A DNA stretch of 25,032 bases from positions 1 through 25,032 of IMG/VR virus record IMGVR_UViG_3300017951_000118; one strand, written 5' to 3'. The position numbers were made by a program, and so were the translations under genes. Under the pieces are notes generated by a model. It searched no databases and had not been told where the DNA came from. It was given only the letters and a program-made list of their open reading frames with translations. This document shows, in pieces, positions 5,443-25,032 of this stretch. Every line of letters begins with the position of its first letter. Position 1 is the first letter of the stretch. The stretch is from a virus.

Positions 5443-7874
5443 TACAGTACCTTTAGGTAATTCACTCTCAGATAGCCATCAGAGCCTTCTGTAACGGCCT
5501 CTGGCATGACTTCACGCAGTTCTTGAGCCAGCACGCCAATCGTCGGCTGATTCCCTGCAATGCGCTTGCCTTCCTCATTCCAATCCCAGGTGTAGAGGCT
5601 GATACCCTTATCTGACTTGCCAATAGGCTGGATGTTCTCCTTGAGCCTAATATCAGACATTTGTGCCCCGAGCGTGAGGTAATCAAATAGCCCCGGCTGA
5701 CGGCTTGTTGTCTGCGTCTGTTGACCCGTCTGAGACCCTGCAAACGCCCCAAGAGCAGTTTGTAGGGCTTGCTGGGGCGCACCGGTGAATCCAGCATACT
5801 GCTGATTAGCCGCGTCAATGATTGCCTGCTGAGCCGCCCTTTCAAGCGCACCCTGCTGAGCGACTGCCTGATTAACAGTATTTGCCGCACCAAATCCAAG
5901 ATTAGCGAGACTGCCTAACTGGCCTGCTGCCGCGAGTTGTTGATTAACTCCCTGCAATCCTGCGCCTTGATTAGCGAGTGCCGCCTGTAATGCCGCCTGC
6001 TGATTCTGGATCGCGGCCGTATTTCCAGCCTGAGCCCCGAACTGCGCTGCTGCATTCGTTGCTGCGGCATTCTGCAAGTTGGCTTGTGTTCCCAATTGAG
6101 CGTTCTGTAGCGCGGCCACGTTTCCTGCCTGCGCTCCAAACTGAGCAGCTGCGTTCTGAGCCGCCGCGTTTTGTAGTGCCGCCACGTTTGCGGCTTGAGC
6201 ACCAAACTGTGCCGCCTGGCTTCCCAGCTGAGCGTTTTGCAATGAAGCCACGTTTTGGGCTTGTGCGCCAAACTGAGCCGCTTGATTGAGTGCAGCCTGG
6301 TTCGCCAATGCCTGCTGGTTCTGTGCCGCAGATGAGAACTGTGCCGCCTGATTCTGTGCGGCCGCATTTTGGAGTGCTGCAACATTCGCTGCCTGAGCTC
6401 CGAATTGAGCCGCCTGATTCGCCGCCGCTTGATTTGCAAGGTTTGCTTGAGTACCAAGCTGGGCGTTCTGTAGAGCGGCCTGAGTGCCGAGTTGGGCGTT
6501 CTGCAATGCCGCAACATTCTGCGCTTGGGCTCCAAACTGAGCGGCCTGATTCGCGGCGGCTTGGTTGGCAAGATTAGCCTGCGTACCAAGTTGTGCATTT
6601 TGCAGGGCGGAGACATTAGCAGCTTGAGCCCCAAACTGAGCGGCTTGGTTTTGTGCTGCCTGATTGGCAAGCTGAGCCTGCTGCCCTAATTGGGCGGTTG
6701 TTGTGCCCGCCTGTAGCGCCGCCTGCTGGTTGGCAAGGTTGGCCTGCATCCTTGTAGCGATATCCTGCTGTGCAGCTTGCTGGGCTTGCGTAAAGCCTGC
6801 CTGGCGCAAACCTGAAGCCGTCCTAGCCGCCTGCTCTGCAAAGGCCCTATTAGTTTCAGCCTGAGCAATAGCCTCACGCGAACCACCAAATGCACCCGCA
6901 GCTTGGGCCTGAGCCCCCTGCACGTTCTGCTGCATCTGACGCGCCCTCTCAATATCGGAGAGAGACTGCTGTACTACCTGAGACTCGTAAGGGTTAAAGT
7001 ATGGGTCTAGGCTAGTGCCTGCAAGTTGACCAGCTGCTACGCGCTCTTCTCGGACAGGGCCAACGCCTGCAATTCTTTCTGCGCCATATCCTTGCGACGC
7101 CGCCCTTTCAGCTGCAGCCCGCTCTGCGGTATATCCCTGAGCTGCAGCCCTCTCAGCTTTCGCTCTTTCTGCGGCCGCTCTCTCAGCTGTATAGCCTTGC
7201 GATTCCGCTAATGTAGCATCATAGCCCTGAGACTCACCCAATGCGGCCTCAAAACCAGCTGATCCTGCTCGCTCTGCGGTGTATCCCTGAGACCCAGCAT
7301 CAACTGCTTGATAACCCTGGGCTGCAGCCGATTGTGCCGCCGCACTCGTTGGGTTATACCCCTGAGCACTAATCTGTTGCGCTTGGATGTTCATGGGCTG
7401 GTATTGCATCGCCTGAGCGGTTCCAATCCCTGCCTGCCTAAATCCAGCTGCTACAGCTTCTGGCAGGCTTCCTGCGGATTGCATGGCATCTACGGCTGTC
7501 TGTGCGCCGCCTTTGCCTCCAGGCGCTGGTGCAGACGACCCAGTAGGAACGCCTTCCGTTGCTTTCTGCACAGAGCCCAACTGCTGATTAAATAGAGTTG
7601 TTGGCCCGCCAGAGCTTGGGCCAGTTGGAACGCCACCGAGTGTTGCCGATCCAGGAACTGGTGCTTGAGGCACTGGTGCCGCTTGGGCCCCACCTAATCC
7701 GAACGCCAAATTTGCCGCGTCAAAATCTGAAAGCCCTGCCAATCTCGGGTCATTTGCTACCACCTGCATGGTTTGTCCGGTTTGCGGGTTGGTTAGCGTT
7801 CTTTCGTTTGGCCTTGCTACCTGAGCGCCGCCTTTTGATCCACCCGCTGGTGTTGTAGCTCCGCCGCCAGCCAT
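5442..7874 (-). CDS. Repeat-rich virion protein with C-terminal S74 self-cleaving chaperone domain (810 aa)
   Basis: Domains in order: a Gly/Ala/Pro-rich, probably disordered start (1-165); irregular [SA]QGY repeats (about 170-270); a segment with LDPYFNPYESQVVQQSL (289-305) and AQAAGAFGGSREAIAQAE (323-340), a signature I associate with marine podovirus virion proteins; an uninterrupted run of 24 eleven-residue Ala/Gln/Asn repeats (381-644); a linker; and a C-terminal S74 domain (740-810). The S74 part opens with SDIRLKENI and continues through YTWDWNEEG, IGVLAQELREVMPEAV and LRVNYLKV. S74 domains trimerise the protein, then cut themselves off; Ser740 is the expected cleavage site. Strong ribosome site: AGGAG six bases before ATG. 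Neighbours are a MAGGKGG protein upstream and putative ejection proteins downstream. It may be a tail-fibre-like or an internal protein; the repeats do not decide. Confidence 0.72.
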   Translation of the reverse strand: MAGGGATTPAGGSKGGAQVARPNERTLTNPQTGQTMQVVANDPRLAGLSDFDAANLAFGLGGAQAAPVPQAPVPGSATLGGVPTGPSSGGPTTLFNQQLGSVQKATEGVPTGSSAPAPGGKGGAQTAVDAMQSAGSLPEAVAAGFRQAGIGTAQAMQYQPMNIQAQQISAQGYNPTSAAAQSAAAQGYQAVDAGSQGYTAERAGSAGFEAALGESQGYDATLAESQGYTAERAAAERAKAERAAAQGYTAERAAAERAASQGYGAERIAGVGPVREERVAAGQLAGTSLDPYFNPYESQVVQQSLSDIERARQMQQNVQGAQAQAAGAFGGSREAIAQAETNRAFAEQAARTASGLRQAGFTQAQQAAQQDIATRMQANLANQQAALQAGTTTAQLGQQAQLANQAAQNQAAQFGAQAANVSALQNAQLGTQANLANQAAANQAAQFGAQAQNVAALQNAQLGTQAALQNAQLGTQANLANQAAANQAAQFGAQAANVAALQNAAAQNQAAQFSSAAQNQQALANQAALNQAAQFGAQAQNVASLQNAQLGSQAAQFGAQAANVAALQNAAAQNAAAQFGAQAGNVAALQNAQLGTQANLQNAAATNAAAQFGAQAGNTAAIQNQQAALQAALANQGAGLQGVNQQLAAAGQLGSLANLGFGAANTVNQAVAQQGALERAAQQAIIDAANQQYAGFTGAPQQALQTALGAFAGSQTGQQTQTTSRQPGLFDYLTLGAQMSDIRLKENIQPIGKSDKGISLYTWDWNEEGKRIAGNQPTIGVLAQELREVMPEAVTEGSDGYLRVNYLKVL
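5943..6734 (-). repeat. Coding repeat: 24 consecutive 11-residue (33-bp) units
   Basis: Residues 381-644 of the S74 protein divide into 24 units of exactly 11 residues with no insertion or deletion. Three unit types recur: FGAQAxNVAAL, QNAQLGTQANL and ANQAAxNQAAQ. Position 11 is mostly Leu or Gln, and position 9 is mostly Ala. An 11-residue period is the hendecad of right-handed coiled coils. At DNA level units differ by many silent changes, so they are old or selected at protein level. One duplicated pair (QNAQLGTQA followed by QNAQLGTQA) looks recent. Confidence 0.85.
7065..7367 (-). repeat. Coding repeat: irregular [SA]QGY motif array
   Basis: Residues 170-270 of the S74 protein contain the motif [SA]QGY seven times (AQGYNPTS, AQGYQAVD, SQGYTAER, SQGYDATL, SQGYTAER, AQGYTAER, SQGYGAER), plus one degenerate AGFEAAL, spaced about 10-20 residues. 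Several are followed by TAERAAAER helical segments. This is a separate repeat family from the 11-residue units further on. Its role is unknown. Confidence 0.7.
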
Positions 7875-13321: not shown

Positions 13322-14100
13322 GCGAGAGCTTGTCCTGCTGTAAATCCATACCAGGTGGTGCCGCCGTCATGCGTAATGAATACAAAGTAATCCACCGCGC
13401 TGGCAGTAGCCGTTAGTGTTGGTGCTGTGGCCGCAGGCCAATCTACTGCCGCAGGCCAAGTAACCGTGAAGCCAGATGCACTAGCATCTTGTACTAGCTT
13501 TAAGCTAAACGCAGACACCTTGCCGCTTGATGCCGGGTTGCTGAAGGTGAACGTAGTGTTCTCTGTCAGCGTATGGCTGAAATTAGTGCCGTCCTGAAGG
13601 TTTACCGTTGTCGCATTGCTTGTTGATGTGACTGCCGTGTATTCCTCAGAAATGCCGTTGTCGAACGTCACGACACCATTTGCGTCAGCTGTAAGCGCCT
13701 TGCTCGCCTCACTGGTTCCCAGTGTAGTAACGTCAAGGTAGTTAATCTCTGTAGCTGTAGCAGTCACACCATCAAGGATGTTGAGTTCTGCGGCCGTTGA
13801 AGTCACGCCGTCTAAAATATTCAGCTCTGCAGCAGTAGCTGTAACGCCGTCCAGAATGTTGAGCTCCGCAGCGGTTGAGGTAACACCATCAAGAATATTT
13901 AGCTCAGCAGCGGTCGAAGTCACAGCAACGCCGCCCACTTGCCAAGACCCAGCTGTCAGGTTTGGCGCAATCGCCGTAGTGCCATCAAGCAGATCGTCAA
14001 GAGTGTCAAGGTTAGTGTTTAACTTGGTTCCCCAAGTATCGTCAGACGCGCCGACTTCGGGCTTCGTCAGTCCATATGTAGTGGTAGTTGTGTCGGCCAT
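13318..14100 (-). CDS. Tail fibre protein with AELNILDGVT repeats (260 aa)
   Basis: The N-terminus (TYGLTKPEVGASDDTWGTKL, 8-27) is a typical opening of phage fibre proteins that anchors to the virion. Residues 60-123 hold five 13-residue repeats of VT[SA]TAAELNILDG, the last degenerate (ATATEINYLD). The C-terminal part has LQDGTNFSHTLTENTTFTFS, VTWPAAVDWPAATAPTLTA, and DYFVFITHDGGTTWYGFTAG. Both the repeats and this ending are widespread in phage and marine viral fibres, usually forming trimeric triple-beta shafts. It starts 2 bases after the upstream TAG, with AGGGG about 10 bases before ATG, and its end overlaps the next gene by 4. It probably contributes to host-surface binding. Function is family-level inference. 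Confidence 0.75.
   Translation of the reverse strand: MADTTTTTYGLTKPEVGASDDTWGTKLNTNLDTLDDLLDGTTAIAPNLTAGSWQVGGVAVTSTAAELNILDGVTSTAAELNILDGVTATAAELNILDGVTSTAAELNILDGVTATATEINYLDVTTLGTSEASKALTADANGVVTFDNGISEEYTAVTSTSNATTVNLQDGTNFSHTLTENTTFTFSNPASSGKVSAFSLKLVQDASASGFTVTWPAAVDWPAATAPTLTATASAVDYFVFITHDGGTTWYGFTAGQALA
13732..13923 (-). repeat. Coding repeat: five 39-bp units (13-residue fibre repeat)
   Basis: Five consecutive 39-bp units encode VT[SA]TAAELNILDG; the fifth is divergent. The units carry many silent differences, so they are protein-level repeats rather than recent DNA duplications. They are coding and have no spacer structure of a CRISPR array. Confidence 0.85.
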
Positions 14101-18480: not shown

Positions 18481-19761
18481 TCATGCAAGTCCCTGTATGT
18501 TTCTTCGGATAGGGCCTGACGTCCATTGCTGGGCTGGTCTGTGGCCTACGCAGAGGTATCTGAATGCGTCTGCAGCGTGAGACGTCCAGTCGTGCTTTGG
18601 TCTGCCTCTCCACGCCTTCCCGGAGTCATCCCAATCCCTACGGTACTGCATCAGGGCGTCAATGCCCCGCTCGCACTTCTCTGCGTCAAACCATGACATG
18701 GGAATGTTCGATCGCACTTGCTGGATGCCATCCTCAACGCTGAGCATGGGGCAGATCTCTATATTAGAAAGGCCAAGGGACTGCAGCACCTCATAGCGAG
18801 ACTTGCCGGTGCCGAGCTCTTTTACCCTAACGTCATGAGGCAGGATGTGGTTGGTGTAGTGATAGCCCTTTTCGTTAAGAACCTTGGCGTAATGGTCTAG
18901 CGCGTATCCGCTAGCTTCATAGTAATCAATGATCCTGATCTCTTTCCCCACGAACTGGGCGAACCAGATCGCAGTTGAGTCATCCATACCCAAGTCCCAG
19001 GCAGTGACTACCCCGGTGCCCTTGTCATACGGAACTACACAGATGCGGCCGTCTTTCTTAGCATCAAGCATCTCATGGGCGTAGTAGGCTCCATCCGTGT
19101 AAACAATGAAGCCGCCATCCCAAACGTGATCATATATCTCTGGCCGCTTTTCCAAGTCCTCAAGCCTCTCCATTTCTAGGGCCTTAGTGAACCAAGGATT
19201 GTCATTCCAGTTGATCTCTACGATCTTGGAGTCTCTAGGCGGATTCTCTCTGAACCGCTGATGAGTAGCAGACTCCTTGCTCTCTGGATTCCATGTGACC
19301 CAGATCTCACTCTCATCTTCCCGGACGGTTGGCACCAGCTTCCGCCACGCCATCTCCGAGACATCTTCAGCCTCATCTATCCACGCCAGTAGTATCCGGC
19401 TCTTCGACTTGACCGAGTTGATGTTACTCCGCAGCCCTGAGAATGCAAAATGGATACGGCCGTCCCGGCTCTTAATGTATCGCTCGCCGCACTCGTAATA
19501 CTCCCGCAGGAATTCATGCTGCTCAATTACTGTCTTCAGCTCCTCCAGTGAGGAGTCTTCCAGAGAGTTAAGCCGTTCCCGGGCGCATAGTATTAGCCCG
19601 CTGTTCCCGCTCATCCCCTCCTGGTATCCCTTGATCGCAGTCATAAGCGCAAAGGTGCGGGTCTTCCCGCTACCCCTGCCGCCGTATGCCCCTCGGTATC
19701 GGGCTGGCCCCTCAAATACCGGGACTAGTGGATCCGGTATCTGTATCGTCGCCTGCTGCAT
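18481..19761 (-). CDS. terL: Terminase large subunit (Terminase_3/PBSX-type)
   Basis: The DNA-packaging motor ATPase and headful or end-cutting nuclease. The N-terminal ATPase shows Walker A GGRGSGKT (27-34), Walker B LLAWIDEAED with Asp129/Glu130, and a VTWNPES coupling motif (155-161). The C-terminal RNase H-like nuclease shows AWDLGMDDS (Asp256), ILPHD (Asp310) and HAADAFRYL (Asp398). At 426 residues it is full length for Terminase_3. The ATG lies within the last 50 bases of the small-subunit gene, with AAGGG just upstream, so the two are coupled. Downstream lies the ART gene rather than a portal gene, which is unusual for this family's gene order. Confidence 0.95.
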   Translation of the reverse strand: MQQATIQIPDPLVPVFEGPARYRGAYGGRGSGKTRTFALMTAIKGYQEGMSGNSGLILCARERLNSLEDSSLEELKTVIEQHEFLREYYECGERYIKSRDGRIHFAFSGLRSNINSVKSKSRILLAWIDEAEDVSEMAWRKLVPTVREDESEIWVTWNPESKESATHQRFRENPPRDSKIVEINWNDNPWFTKALEMERLEDLEKRPEIYDHVWDGGFIVYTDGAYYAHEMLDAKKDGRICVVPYDKGTGVVTAWDLGMDDSTAIWFAQFVGKEIRIIDYYEASGYALDHYAKVLNEKGYHYTNHILPHDVRVKELGTGKSRYEVLQSLGLSNIEICPMLSVEDGIQQVRSNIPMSWFDAEKCERGIDALMQYRRDWDDSGKAWRGRPKHDWTSHAADAFRYLCVGHRPAQQWTSGPIRRNIQGLA

Positions 19762-21786: not shown

Positions 21787-22028
21787 GTACCAGATTCACC
21801 CATATCGTCTTCTATTTCTATTTCAATCTCACCCACTGATAAAGCAGTCTGCCACATCTCCGCAAATCGATCTATCTCCACATCCACCGTTACGCCCTCG
21901 GGGAAATTGTCAGTGTAAACGTCCGTTTCTGAGGGATTTGAGGAGTTGGTCATGCAACCGCCTATGGTTGACACCAAAAATACAACCATGCCCCTGTTTT
22001 TCGGTAGCTCCGCTGCGATCAGCATCAT
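21777..22028 (-). CDS. Small putative lipoprotein or membrane-anchored protein (83 aa)
   Basis: The N-terminus has a positive patch (LPKNR, 9-12), a hydrophobic run MVVFLVSTIGG (14-24) and C25, which resembles a lipoprotein signal with a weak IGGC lipobox. The mature part is acidic (EIEIEDDMGESG). The start overlaps the metallophosphoesterase stop as ATGATG. A lipoprotein among recombination genes is odd; possibilities are membrane-targeted exclusion or a misleading hydrophobic run. No family is recognised. Confidence 0.5.
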   Translation of the reverse strand: MMLIAAELPKNRGMVVFLVSTIGGCMTNSSNPSETDVYTDNFPEGVTVDVEIDRFAEMWQTALSVGEIEIEIEDDMGESGTCH

Positions 22029-23185
22029 TGCCTGGGCCTCACTGTGATTCTGGATACCTCGCCGTCAATTTTATCGTAAGTAATTACCTTCGCGCCTCTT
22101 CTAGATACCCAGCCCCCACTCGCGGCATGAGCGTCTCTCGCGGCCAATGTCGGATGTTGCTCCGCTATTGCCCCGCCATCCTCTACCACCCTCTCGTGAT
22201 GATAATGACCTGTATGGATATAGGTGTAATTCGCTTTACCCCACATCTCTCGGAATCGAGGCTCACTAGCAAACAGCTTGTGCAGCTGCGGTAACTTCAT
22301 CTTGTGGCCGTGATGGAAGCCCAGCATGGTCTGTCCGTGAAGGTAGGCGTAATATGGGTAGTCGTTATCAATAACCTCCACCCGGCGCTCCTTGCTGAAT
22401 AGGTGCGCTAGATGTTTACGCAGCCAGATAGAGCCCGAAATATCGTGATTCCCTTCCGCATTTACGATAACTACCTTGCCGAAATGGCTCAGCATGATGT
22501 TCACCGCTTCAGCCATTACTGACATTGTGAGGTCTACCAGCTTTGCGTACCGAGTATCTGCGTCCAGAATATGGCCCGACTGTGGGGTCACGTTAAGGAT
22601 GCCATCCCAATGAAGGAAGTCACCCAGCTGGCAAAGCATCCCAATCCCAGCCTTGGGTGAGGCTGCAACCATATCGTGGATAGAATTCAGGAAGACGTCC
22701 CGGGCGATCTTGATATCCCAATCATCGCCGGTCTCTGCCTCATAGGCGTACATACCGAGATGGAAGTCAGTGATCGTTAAAAGGCTCAGCAGCGAGTTTT
22801 CTACCGTGGCAGGCTTCTTGGTTGGCTTGAACCTCGGAACGTCCTGGTGAGCCTCCTCTAGTCGCTCAAGCAGGATCTCGAACTGGCGTTTTTCATCGGT
22901 CTGAGATTTGACCCACTGGCGAACCGGACGGCCGTCATCATCATAGAACGTAGATACGCCCTTGATCTTATGGCCGTCAGGTACAGGGTGGTTCCAATCA
23001 TGCTCTGGGCTGTAGCCCGCTTTCGCGGCCCGCTCCTTTACTCGGCGCATACTGCGGTACACGTTGCGGAGATCCATGCCCAGCCGGTCGGCAATTTGCC
23101 TATGGCTTAGTCCTTGATTTTTTAAGTTATAGATCTGCGTCTGCCGCTCTGTCTCACAGAACTGCATCATTGGATGTTCCGACAC
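22025..23185 (-). CDS. HTH-metallophosphoesterase fusion (386 aa)
   Basis: The N-terminal 15-50 region (NLKNQGLSHRQIADRLGMDL, RNVYRSMRRV) is a sigma-like helix-turn-helix. The C-terminal calcineurin-like phosphoesterase (about 130-345) shows the metal motifs DxH (D140, H142), GDF (G188, D189), GNHD (245-248), HHGH (291-294) and GHYHH (326-330). It would cleave phosphodiesters or phosphomonoesters with two metals; the substrate is unknown. Similar fusions occur in phages and are often annotated DNA-repair exonuclease or metallophosphoesterase. It lies between the NinB-like and lipoprotein-like genes, overlapping the latter by 4 bp. The HTH suggests DNA targeting. Confidence 0.85.
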   Translation of the reverse strand: MSEHPMMQFCETERQTQIYNLKNQGLSHRQIADRLGMDLRNVYRSMRRVKERAAKAGYSPEHDWNHPVPDGHKIKGVSTFYDDDGRPVRQWVKSQTDEKRQFEILLERLEEAHQDVPRFKPTKKPATVENSLLSLLTITDFHLGMYAYEAETGDDWDIKIARDVFLNSIHDMVAASPKAGIGMLCQLGDFLHWDGILNVTPQSGHILDADTRYAKLVDLTMSVMAEAVNIMLSHFGKVVIVNAEGNHDISGSIWLRKHLAHLFSKERRVEVIDNDYPYYAYLHGQTMLGFHHGHKMKLPQLHKLFASEPRFREMWGKANYTYIHTGHYHHERVVEDGGAIAEQHPTLAARDAHAASGGWVSRRGAKVITYDKIDGEVSRITVRPRQ

Positions 23186-23620
23186 TTAGCCCCCCTTGAG
23201 TGTCATAAACTCCGAGTCCGCTGGACAGGTCAATTGTACACCAAGATCGAGGCACCAGTTTTGAATTTTATCCATAAATTCAAGCATCTCCCCCGTATCC
23301 AGAGAACTGGTCTCACGAACCTGACCCTTAATTATTGTTTTTCCTACAACAAGGTCTTCGGTTCCGAGGAACTTGTACTTCACAAGGATTTTCATTTTCT
23401 TTTTAGTGAGGCCGGGCATCGTTTTTTTAAAATGAGCAGTCATCTCACTAACCCATAAATGGAATAGCGCGTTCTGGGCGAGGCTGCGCTTTGGCTTGTA
23501 AGGCGACACCTTCCACTGTACCGGGCTCTCCCAGTTCCAGTTCTTCCGCAGCCAGTCCTCGAAAAAGACCAGCCTCTGCGTGATGTCATCCGCGCTCTTT
23601 ACCATCCAGAATTCACCCAT
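23186..23620 (-). CDS. ninB: NinB-like recombination protein (144 aa)
   Basis: The pattern YKPKRSLAQNALFHLWVSEM (42-61), then KFLGTEDLVVGKTIIKGQVR and TGEMLEFMDKIQNWCLDLGV, is characteristic of lambda NinB (Orf)-family recombination proteins, which help load RecA-like annealing proteins at single-stranded DNA. The length fits the family. AGGAGGG stands 4 bases before ATG. The gene follows the helicase by nine bases and abuts the metallophosphoesterase start with no gap. Identification is strong by pattern. Confidence 0.82.
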   Translation of the reverse strand: MGEFWMVKSADDITQRLVFFEDWLRKNWNWESPVQWKVSPYKPKRSLAQNALFHLWVSEMTAHFKKTMPGLTKKKMKILVKYKFLGTEDLVVGKTIIKGQVRETSSLDTGEMLEFMDKIQNWCLDLGVQLTCPADSEFMTLKGG

Positions 23621-23629
23621 AACTCCCTC

Positions 23630-24580
23630 CTACAATAGCTCTTGGATCTTTGGCGGCGTGACGCGCTCACCTACGCTGAAAGTCTGACCGGCCGTGTCAT
23701 ACAGCTGAATGATGCCCTCAAATGGAGCCTTGCGTTGCTTTGCCACTATGGCCCGGAAGTCAGCCTGCTCCTGAAGAATCTTCCGCTCCTTGTCATCAAG
23801 CGATATGCCGTACTCCTGCTTAGTTTTAATTTTCGCTCGGAGCTTGTTGTGCCAGACAATTATCAGCAGGTGGCACTGGTCAACAATCGTGCTGCCGCCC
23901 CTAATATCAAATCGAGTCGGGACATATTCATCACCTCCCCGGTCGGGCTTTCTGACATGGTGGATGATGCAGATATGAACCTTCAGGGCTGACGCTAGGC
24001 CGATCACCTGGTTAAACCATAGGCGCTCCCGCTCTATGTCATCTGAGACCCCCGTAAATTGCAGGTTATCAATGACAATTAGCTTGCAGCCCCTCTCCGC
24101 CATAGCCGCGATAGCCCCTAAACTCTGCAGCGGCTTAACTCCACCCAAAACGCGATACCAGCAGAATCTGGGCTCAATCCACTCAGCAAACCGTTCGCCC
24201 ATCTGCCTGGATGGGTTGTTTACCGCAACAGCCTGCTTGCACATCAACTTAGCCGTGTCCTCGACGTCCATCTCAAATGACGCGAGGCCCACCATGCATT
24301 CCTGGGCGGCGTGAACCATGATCTGGCTAATGAAGGTGGACTTCTTGTGTCCGTTGATCCCGGCTATAACTGAGCATTCACCCATCCGTAGCCTTACCTT
24401 ATCGTGAGTGTTGCCCCACGGCATCTTAATCCCCGTCTCAGCTGGTGACTTCTCCAGCCGATCGAGGAACTCATCTTTGAATGCGTCAATGCTGACTACA
24501 TCAAGATCTTCGACCTTGGTATAGATTTTCTGCAAGTCAGCGTCAGTGAAATCTTCAACCTCAGAATGTGACAGCCTCAT
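23630..24580 (-). CDS. DnaB-like replicative helicase, C-terminal ATPase domain only (316 aa)
   Basis: Unwinds DNA at the replication fork. Motifs: a variant Walker A GINGHKKST (74-82), SFEM (101-104) matching the DnaB FSLEM motif, Walker B KLIVIDNL (166-173), IIHHVRKP (205-212) at the motif-3 position, and RFDIRGGSTIVDQCHLLIIV (223-242) at motif 4. The N-terminal helicase domain (about 150 residues) typical of DnaB is missing; only about 70 residues precede Walker A. It starts by ATGA overlap with the initiator gene. The pair resembles the lambdoid O plus P or DnaB-like arrangement. A RecA/AAA_25-type family name is an alternative. Confidence 0.85.
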   Translation of the reverse strand: MRLSHSEVEDFTDADLQKIYTKVEDLDVVSIDAFKDEFLDRLEKSPAETGIKMPWGNTHDKVRLRMGECSVIAGINGHKKSTFISQIMVHAAQECMVGLASFEMDVEDTAKLMCKQAVAVNNPSRQMGERFAEWIEPRFCWYRVLGGVKPLQSLGAIAAMAERGCKLIVIDNLQFTGVSDDIERERLWFNQVIGLASALKVHICIIHHVRKPDRGGDEYVPTRFDIRGGSTIVDQCHLLIIVWHNKLRAKIKTKQEYGISLDDKERKILQEQADFRAIVAKQRKAPFEGIIQLYDTAGQTFSVGERVTPPKIQELL

Positions 24581-25032
24581 ATGACCAGTTCTCCCGTAGT
24601 GCTATTAGTTGTTTTTGGGAATACGGACTTCCACCCGCATTCAATTGCGCGATCGACACACTCACGCTGCTCGTAAAATGACACCTCCCTTAGCTTATTG
24701 GCAACAATAGTTAATGACCGATCAGTACACGGTGCCTTGAACTTCTTCCGATACTGAACCCAATCCTTCCAGACGTCAGGATCCACTCCTTCGGGCACCT
24801 TACGGCTATGTTTTGCCTTTGGTGGTTCTTTTGATGGTTCTATGGTGGTTAGAGTATTCATTTGCGTACTGCTAGCAGTCTTCATTTGCGTACTGCTACT
24901 AGTATTCATTTGCATACTACTGGCACTAGTATTCATTTGCGTACTACTGAGTCTTAACGTGTAGATTGTTGACTTGTTAAACCTTGGCTCTTTAACGATA
25001 AGTCCTAGCTCCACTAATGACGCCAGCGCCCT
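24577..25032 (-). CDS. O-like replication initiator, N-terminus cut by right edge
   Basis: The frame is open to base 25032 and the true start lies beyond. The visible N-terminal part ALASLVELGLIVKEPRFNKS then TIYTL is the wing end of a winged-helix DNA-binding domain; a GTG at 25014 is an internal Val there, not a start. A low-complexity linker (MNTSASSMQMNTSSSTQMKT) follows, coded by the iterons. The C-terminus WKDWVQYRKKFKAPCTDRSL and ECVDRAIECGWKSVF is common at the end of phage initiators near their helicase-binding part. It overlaps the helicase by ATGA, supporting a replication role. The arrangement parallels lambda O, where the origin sits mid-gene. Likely, not proven. Confidence 0.7.
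   Translation of the reverse strand, partial: RALASLVELGLIVKEPRFNKSTIYTLRLSSTQMNTSASSMQMNTSSSTQMKTASSTQMNTLTTIEPSKEPPKAKHSRKVPEGVDPDVWKDWVQYRKKFKAPCTDRSLTIVANKLREVSFYEQRECVDRAIECGWKSVFPKTTNSTTGELVI
24820..24852. repeat. Three short TGRTGGTT repeats beside the iterons
   Basis: On the plus strand TGGTGGTTCT, TGATGGTTCT and TGGTGGTTAG occur with periods of 12 and 11 bases, directly next to the four iterons. They may be part of the same origin, for example unwinding or helper sites. A chance coding repeat is also possible. Confidence 0.5.
24853..24948. repeat. Four iteron-like 21-bp repeats inside the initiator gene (putative replication origin)
   Basis: The plus strand carries four copies of AGTATTCATTTGCGTACT plus GCT or ACT, starting at 24853, 24877, 24901 and 24928. 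The periods are 24, 24 and 27 bases, all multiples of 3, so the reading frame is kept. Copies differ at one to three bases. Each begins AGTA or AGTC and ends TACT plus three bases, a partial dyad. Lambda has four iterons in the middle of gene O, and this matches that layout. Confidence 0.68.

Follow-up and report, generated by a model that had tools for sequence, protein, structure and literature searches.

The four-copy repeat array in the middle of the replication initiator gene at the end of the window (by which we mean the whole stretch of 25,032 nucleotides that was analysed, a linear virus record whose main genes lie on the minus strand) is very probably a phage replication origin of the theta type, embedded in the initiator gene on the plan known from lambda and P22. 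We consider this the best reading of the sequence because it brings together iterons lying inside a gene, 18-bp dyads, a spacing of nearly two helical turns, a protein of an initiator family, and an adjacent helicase gene. An origin within an O-like initiator gene had been put forward in an earlier note on this DNA, and that proposal is well supported, on comparative evidence, by DNA-level selection on the repeats, by their dyad symmetry, by the coupling of their sequence to the recognition helix of the initiator, and by the lambda/P22 architecture. Directly 3' of the iterons lies a second element, an array of AACCAYCA boxes; it seems to be an equivalent, defined by its sequence and apparently not yet described, of the AT-rich unwinding tract of lambda. 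The features of the window are collected in Table 1.

Table 1. Origin elements and replication genes of the window, with the evidence for each
Feature	Coordinates	Strand	Basis
O-like replication initiator gene, 5' part missing at window end	24577..25032	-	PHROG 678 'replication initiation O-like', E=6e-20; 31 IMG/VR relatives
Winged-helix DNA-binding domain, C-terminal third	24946..25032	-	Alignment with full-length relatives; HTH_36 in L002; AlphaFold residues 3-82
Iteron 1, AGTACGCAAATGAATACT	24928..24945	-	Repeat search; dyad and codon-shuffle test
Iteron 2, AGTATGCAAATGAATACT	24901..24918	-	Repeat search; dyad and codon-shuffle test
Iteron 3, AGTACGCAAATGAAGACT	24877..24894	-	Repeat search; dyad and codon-shuffle test
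Iteron 4, AGTACGCAAATGAATACT	24853..24870	-	Repeat search; dyad and codon-shuffle test
Repeat element 3' of the iterons, CTAACCACCATAGAACCATCAAAAGAACCACCAAAGGCAA, with three AACCAYCA boxes at 11- and 12-bp spacing; proposed role in unwinding / single-strand recognition	24813..24852	-	Highest codon conservation of the gene; conserved beside iterons in diverse O-like genes
Box 1, AACCACCA	24843..24850	-	Repeat search; codon constraint
Box 2, AACCATCA	24832..24839	-	Repeat search; codon constraint
Box 3, AACCACCA	24820..24827	-	Repeat search; one-base frame shift in relatives
C-terminal helical domain, proposed helicase-contacting part	24577..24798	-	Exchanged between lineages independently of winged helix and iterons
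DnaB/RepA-like replicative helicase, 316 aa	23630..24580	-	Pfam AAA_25 4e-9, DnaB_C 3e-6; PHROG 239 primase/helicase 9e-30
NinB/Orf recombination mediator, after helicase in replication module	23186..23620	-	PHROG 72, E=1.9e-25

The initiator reading frame comprises 151 codons in the window, where the end of the record, a fragmentary contig, cuts it, and the helicase gene follows directly downstream with an overlap of 4 bp. The genes run from the O-like initiator through the DnaB-like helicase and NinB to an exonuclease, so that the order of a P22-type replication module (O-like initiator, DnaB-like helicase, nin genes) is present. The exonuclease (22025-23185, minus strand) is a predicted DNA repair enzyme (PHROG 704) with an N-terminal segment resembling sigma-70 region 4 or an HTH. 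The terminase (18481-19761, minus strand) is nearest, at 45-50% amino acid identity, to those of Paracoccus, Microcystis, Rhizobium and Sulfitobacter phages, while the helicase finds its matches mainly in Pseudomonas, Salmonella and Vibrio phages; the genome appears to be a mosaic, since the two genes point to different phage groups. Two ordinary-looking coding tandem repeats, at 13747-13924 (39/78 bp) and 6089-6281 (about 66 bp), lie within larger ORFs.

Scans of IMG/VR for relatives of the initiator gave 31 and then 36 loci, in overlapping sets; a profile of the window family scanned against bacterial genomes found no relatives there. Full-length relatives consist of an N-terminal winged helix, a variable linker and a C-terminal helical part, and Pfam HTH_36 is matched by 11 of 12 of them, with E=1.5e-14 in the full-length protein L002. 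The AlphaFold model of L002, with an overall pTM of only 0.41, places a winged helix at residues 3-82 (pLDDT mostly 72-92) and helices at 141-187, and predicts that residues 86-132, which are encoded by the iterons and the tail that follows them, are disordered between the two folded parts. Foldseek searches with this model gave weak winged-helix matches, as the domain is small, the best having E 0.013; among them is 4pt7, 'Structure of initiator'. The winged-helix part named in the earlier note can be read whole in the full-length relatives, the window itself containing only the last third of the domain.

Four repeats with start-to-start spacings of 24, 24 and 27 bp are present, as described previously, at 24853-24945 on the minus (sense) strand, and they do encode the linker that joins the DNA-binding domain to the C-terminal part of the protein. 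Their conserved unit is 18 bp, and each copy is also an imperfect inverted repeat at near two-turn spacing, a symmetry missing from the earlier description. A degenerate form of the 18-mer has four matches in the 25-kb window even when three mismatches are allowed, all of them in the linker, against 0.08 in shuffled sequence. When all viral contigs were scanned for the iteron of the window, multi-copy arrays appeared only in four near relatives, and the single copies in 11 other viral contigs are taken as chance. The suggestion that this is a new iteron family holds for the sequence, which is new, but the novelty is unremarkable, as iteron sequences are particular to each class of initiator.

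At the iterons and boxes, selection acts on DNA rather than on peptide. The opposite reading, in which a flexible low-complexity linker (STQMNT) was expanded by tandem duplication and the DNA has no role, would fit the four copies of the window, which share one frame and encode similar peptides, but we judge it extremely unlikely in view of the relatives: these carry three or four DNA repeats, while their linker peptides are wholly different (STQMNT, SGIEIKT, SVEINT and STDIGP/KYQYRA/RPDIGH). Repeat number and spacing are therefore kept while the peptide drifts, a comparison that the earlier note had suggested as a possible refutation and whose outcome favours the origin. In L048, L054 and L060, a spacing of 25/23/24 puts iteron 2 in another frame, where it encodes an unrelated peptide and the DNA is conserved; out-of-frame iterons and boxes, unless they are artefacts, refute a peptide repeat. 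It is also rejected by a codon-shuffle null, in which the peptide was fixed and the codons shuffled 20000 times: the iterons of the window are identical at 0.94 against 0.74 in the null, and their dyad arms pair at 4.0 of 6 positions against 1.7 (p<5e-5 for each), the dyad being weak in the class of L058 (p=0.31 in the same test). Synonymous sites are constrained accordingly: across 15 representatives, codons are identical where the amino acid is identical in 44% of cases in the winged helix, 73% in the iterons, 90% in the tail and 45% in the C-domain, and the core of the tail, at 98-100%, is the most constrained DNA of the gene.

The sequence of the iterons is coupled to that of the winged helix. 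Over 14 sequences, a sample of modest power, iteron distance correlates with recognition-helix distance at r=0.82 (0 of 5000 permutations reaching this value) and at r=0.85 once C-domain distance is removed, and its correlation with C-domain distance is r=0.10 and not significant. Each type of recognition helix has its own class of iteron: SRNAV goes with AGTAC/GGTAT half-sites, TRNAV with AGTACGGAATTC, TRHAV with AGTGT..ACACT, and NRKSV/NQKTV with ACCGATATTGGG, the arrays of classes C and D reading AGTGTCGAAATCAACACT and AGTACCGATATTGGGCCT, respectively. L048 (gene 1868-2482) carries a class-D winged helix and iterons on a C-domain 94% identical to that of the window, and in L058 (gene from 3006) a front of class D is joined to a C-domain that shares 89% identity with that of L047; to judge from these identities, both represent natural exchanges of domains, the winged helix and its iterons having moved as one. 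Such swaps are as expected if the winged helix must match the iterons and the C-domain, as we infer, must match the helicase.

Binding within the gene would explain this coupling even if the iterons were an operator through which the initiator regulates its own gene, with the true origin elsewhere, and iteron-binding initiators can repress their own genes in plasmids. We hold this to be very unlikely, given that the sites lie deep in coding sequence and not at a promoter, that most O-like genes have the same box array after their iterons, and that in lambda and P22 this layout has been mapped or annotated as the origin. The GC-skew check named in the earlier note lends the origin no support and does not discriminate, for in two larger related contigs (G001 and G002) the cumulative curve is monotonic over the whole length, a pattern that probably reflects co-oriented genes.

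The three TGRTGGTT copies noted previously alongside the iterons are found as described; on the sense strand they read as AACCAYCA boxes, common to all iteron classes. In the window, two or more AACC boxes follow the iterons directly on their 3' side, at 9-14 bp from one another and on the same strand, and in relatives box 3 is shifted in frame by one base, so that AAA GAA CCA CCA AAG (KEPPK) is matched by ATT AAC CAC CAA AGG (INHQR). The tail of the window is a T-poor repeated stretch of 42% GC, with 12% of window 40-mers less stable, so that it does not melt unusually easily; in the wider set, box-bearing tails have a GC content 17 points below that of their own gene and are its least stable part, the median share of less stable stretches being 1%.

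Because the tail is the most constrained DNA, IMG/VR was scanned with the box pattern GAACCRTCAAN{0,4}GAACCRTCAA, which found at least 120 stretches, and with a scrambled control of equal length and base content, which found 17. At least 104 of the 120 box-pattern matches listed lie in winged-helix open frames, against 0 of the 17 control matches, and several of the remaining listed viral matches sit truncated at contig ends. The matches listed contain 53 non-redundant genes, 50-51 of which match replication-initiation PHROGs and 50 HTH_36; iteron-like repeats lie directly upstream of the boxes in 52 (51 at p<=0.05), and the boxes occur in all three reading frames. L111, which fails the iteron threshold, looks like a chance match. 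In L130 (5949-6023, minus strand), whose initiator frame has only about 150 codons, the paired box motif is tandemly triplicated in 26-bp steps.

To avoid circularity, O-like genes were also chosen by a protein pattern (A-N-D-E-G-x-C-W-P), which gave 69 non-redundant genes. With a simple iteron finder and coarse p-values (40-100 shuffles, as opposed to the 20000 of the codon-shuffle test), iterons were found at p<=0.05 in 63 of the 69, in more than one frame in 55 of these 63, and the threshold was reached by 4 of 69 control segments taken from other genes of the same contigs. In 50 of the 63 iteron-bearing genes, AACC occurs two or more times between positions -10 and +75 relative to the last iteron. 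Counted in 20-bp bins over the 69 genes, AACC occurs 1.22 times per gene in the bin that follows the last iteron and 0.89 times in the next, compared with about 0.1 in other bins, and GGTT falls to zero directly after the last iteron; the commonest AACC spacings are 11, 12 and 10 bp, distributed over the frames as 80/51/32. AACC pairs occur in 52 of the 69 genes and in 1 of the 69 control segments, and an unbiased count of tandem k-mers found AGAACC in 22 genes where 1.35 were expected. The motif-found and protein-found sets share ancestry, though they differ greatly in their iterons and over most of the protein sequence (column identity averages 14% in the highly diverse alignment A2); order and polarity, with the boxes after the iterons on the sense strand, are conserved.

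The layout extends to bacterial genomes. Among species-representative genomes, 25 of 119 box-pattern matches lie in winged-helix initiator genes, all 25 with iterons at p<=0.05, and the other matches there showed no winged helix; the 25 genes include those of Pseudomonas, Bordetella, Achromobacter, Acidovorax, Snodgrassella, Roseovarius, Campylobacter and two Bifidobacterium species. The prophage-like initiator genes of Bifidobacterium (L220, L242) and Campylobacter concisus (L230) have iterons and boxes outside Pseudomonadota. The box varies as AACCAGTCA in phages RothD, PseuP_222, AsXd-1 and VD67 and as ATACATCAA and AATCTATCA in some O-like genes, and six loci (L338, L339, L378, L392, L420 and L426) have a sister type, ATACATCA/ACACATCAA, at the AACC position directly after the iterons. 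In the cultured phages SI8, C72C1 and Itty13 the simple finder detected no significant iterons, and VD67 was marginal. As annotated, the genes downstream of box-bearing initiators are both helicases and P-like loaders, so the boxes are not tied to one loading route. On inspection and general knowledge, the boxes are unlikely to be IHF sites, for the core WATCAA fails where G stands at the R position, as it often does, and TTR is missing after it; they are also unlikely to be DnaA boxes, which differ, or Chi (GCTGGTGG), to which the resemblance is partial.

Lambda ori, in gene O, shares with the window its iterons within the initiator gene, which encode a linker and are 18-bp imperfect inverted repeats, four in number at 20/24/23 as against 24/24/27, and a T-poor stretch directly 3' of them on the coding strand. 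It differs in iteron sequence, in its tract, which is AT-rich (25% GC, with ACAAAAGA repeats) in place of AACCAYCA boxes, and in its next gene; the match to lambda claimed earlier thus stands for repeat number and place in the gene, but the adjacent gene encodes a DnaB-like helicase, the arrangement of P22 with its gene 12, and not a loader like lambda P. The lambda tract, 38 bp long and adjacent to the iterons (PMC3349717), forms with two iterons the minimal unwinding unit, and O binds it as single strand (PMC7466680). P22 has iterons (20/24/23) in the O-like gene 18, with an annotated origin, followed by the DnaB-like gene 12 and NinB, but its iteron sequence and downstream repeats (ACAAAAGACAAT) are different, and gp12 has 458 aa where the window helicase has 316. 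Other HTH_36 O-like initiators (PHROG 678, 391, 270 and 1032; for example those of Stenotrophomonas phage CUB19, Pseudomonas phage PseuP_222 and Klebsiella phage RothD) share the winged helix, linker iterons maintained at the DNA level, and then AACC boxes mostly 10-13 bp apart; their iterons are unrelated in sequence, mostly spaced at 22 bp and out of frame, their C-domains are different, and a loader is sometimes found downstream. The origins of plasmids RK2 and F, which lie outside the rep gene, also have iterons beside a repeated element (13-mers or 8-mers in the unwinding element), although these repeats are AT-rich and of other sequence, and the initiator families differ. RK2 Rep binds one strand of the repeated 13-mers in a sequence-specific manner, and the principle of an unwinding element made of repeats is already known, because the AT-rich region of lambda also has repeated motifs (PMC4081077). 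A description of one box sequence shared across phages with unrelated iterons was not found in open PMC papers, searched mostly by title, abstract and exact terms.

By analogy with these systems, the boxes may act as single-stranded DNA. They could instead act in RNA, for instance as a transcription termination, antitermination or primer signal: the element is strand-specific and frame-independent, as such a signal would be, and transcription takes part in the activation of the lambda origin (PMC5043065). This we think unlikely, as the boxes abut the iterons at a fixed distance with helical-turn spacing (10-12 bp), occupy the position of the unwinding tract in lambda and P22, and form, across the wider set, the local minimum of DNA stability. 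In the unwinding reading that we prefer, replication would start here, with the initiator binding each of the four 18-bp dyads as a dimer through its winged helix, and the four dyads, about two helical turns apart, gathered into a complex like the O-some of lambda. Such a complex would strain the adjacent stretch, which would open; the boxes (AACCAYCA or AACCRTCAA), roughly one to each turn of the helix, would be recognised in single-stranded form, either by the initiator or by some partner, and so kept open, and the DnaB-like helicase encoded by the next gene would be loaded via the C-terminal domain of the initiator. The wider generalization, to which we give a little less than an even chance, is that the AACCRTCAA array serves O-like initiators of phages in general as an element for sequence-specific recognition of a single strand, of the same sort as the DnaA-trio or the RK2 13-mers, in which variable iterons would give self-specificity and one conserved array, present in phages of Pseudomonadota, Campylobacterota and Actinomycetota, would give strand opening and helicase loading.

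As a single case, the window adds a further origin of the lambda/P22 type, and it is the conserved box element that raises its interest. The gene-embedded origin of lambda is textbook knowledge, while origin-defining sequences elsewhere are largely unannotated, and a simple sequence rule, namely a winged helix, class-specific dyads at about 22-24 bp and AACC boxes at about 11 bp, would allow origins to be located straight from sequence in many phages and prophages. The pairs of iterons and recognition helices offer a natural specificity code and, with the fast-changing specificity part separable from the shared element, how phage initiators open DNA and choose a strand becomes testable.
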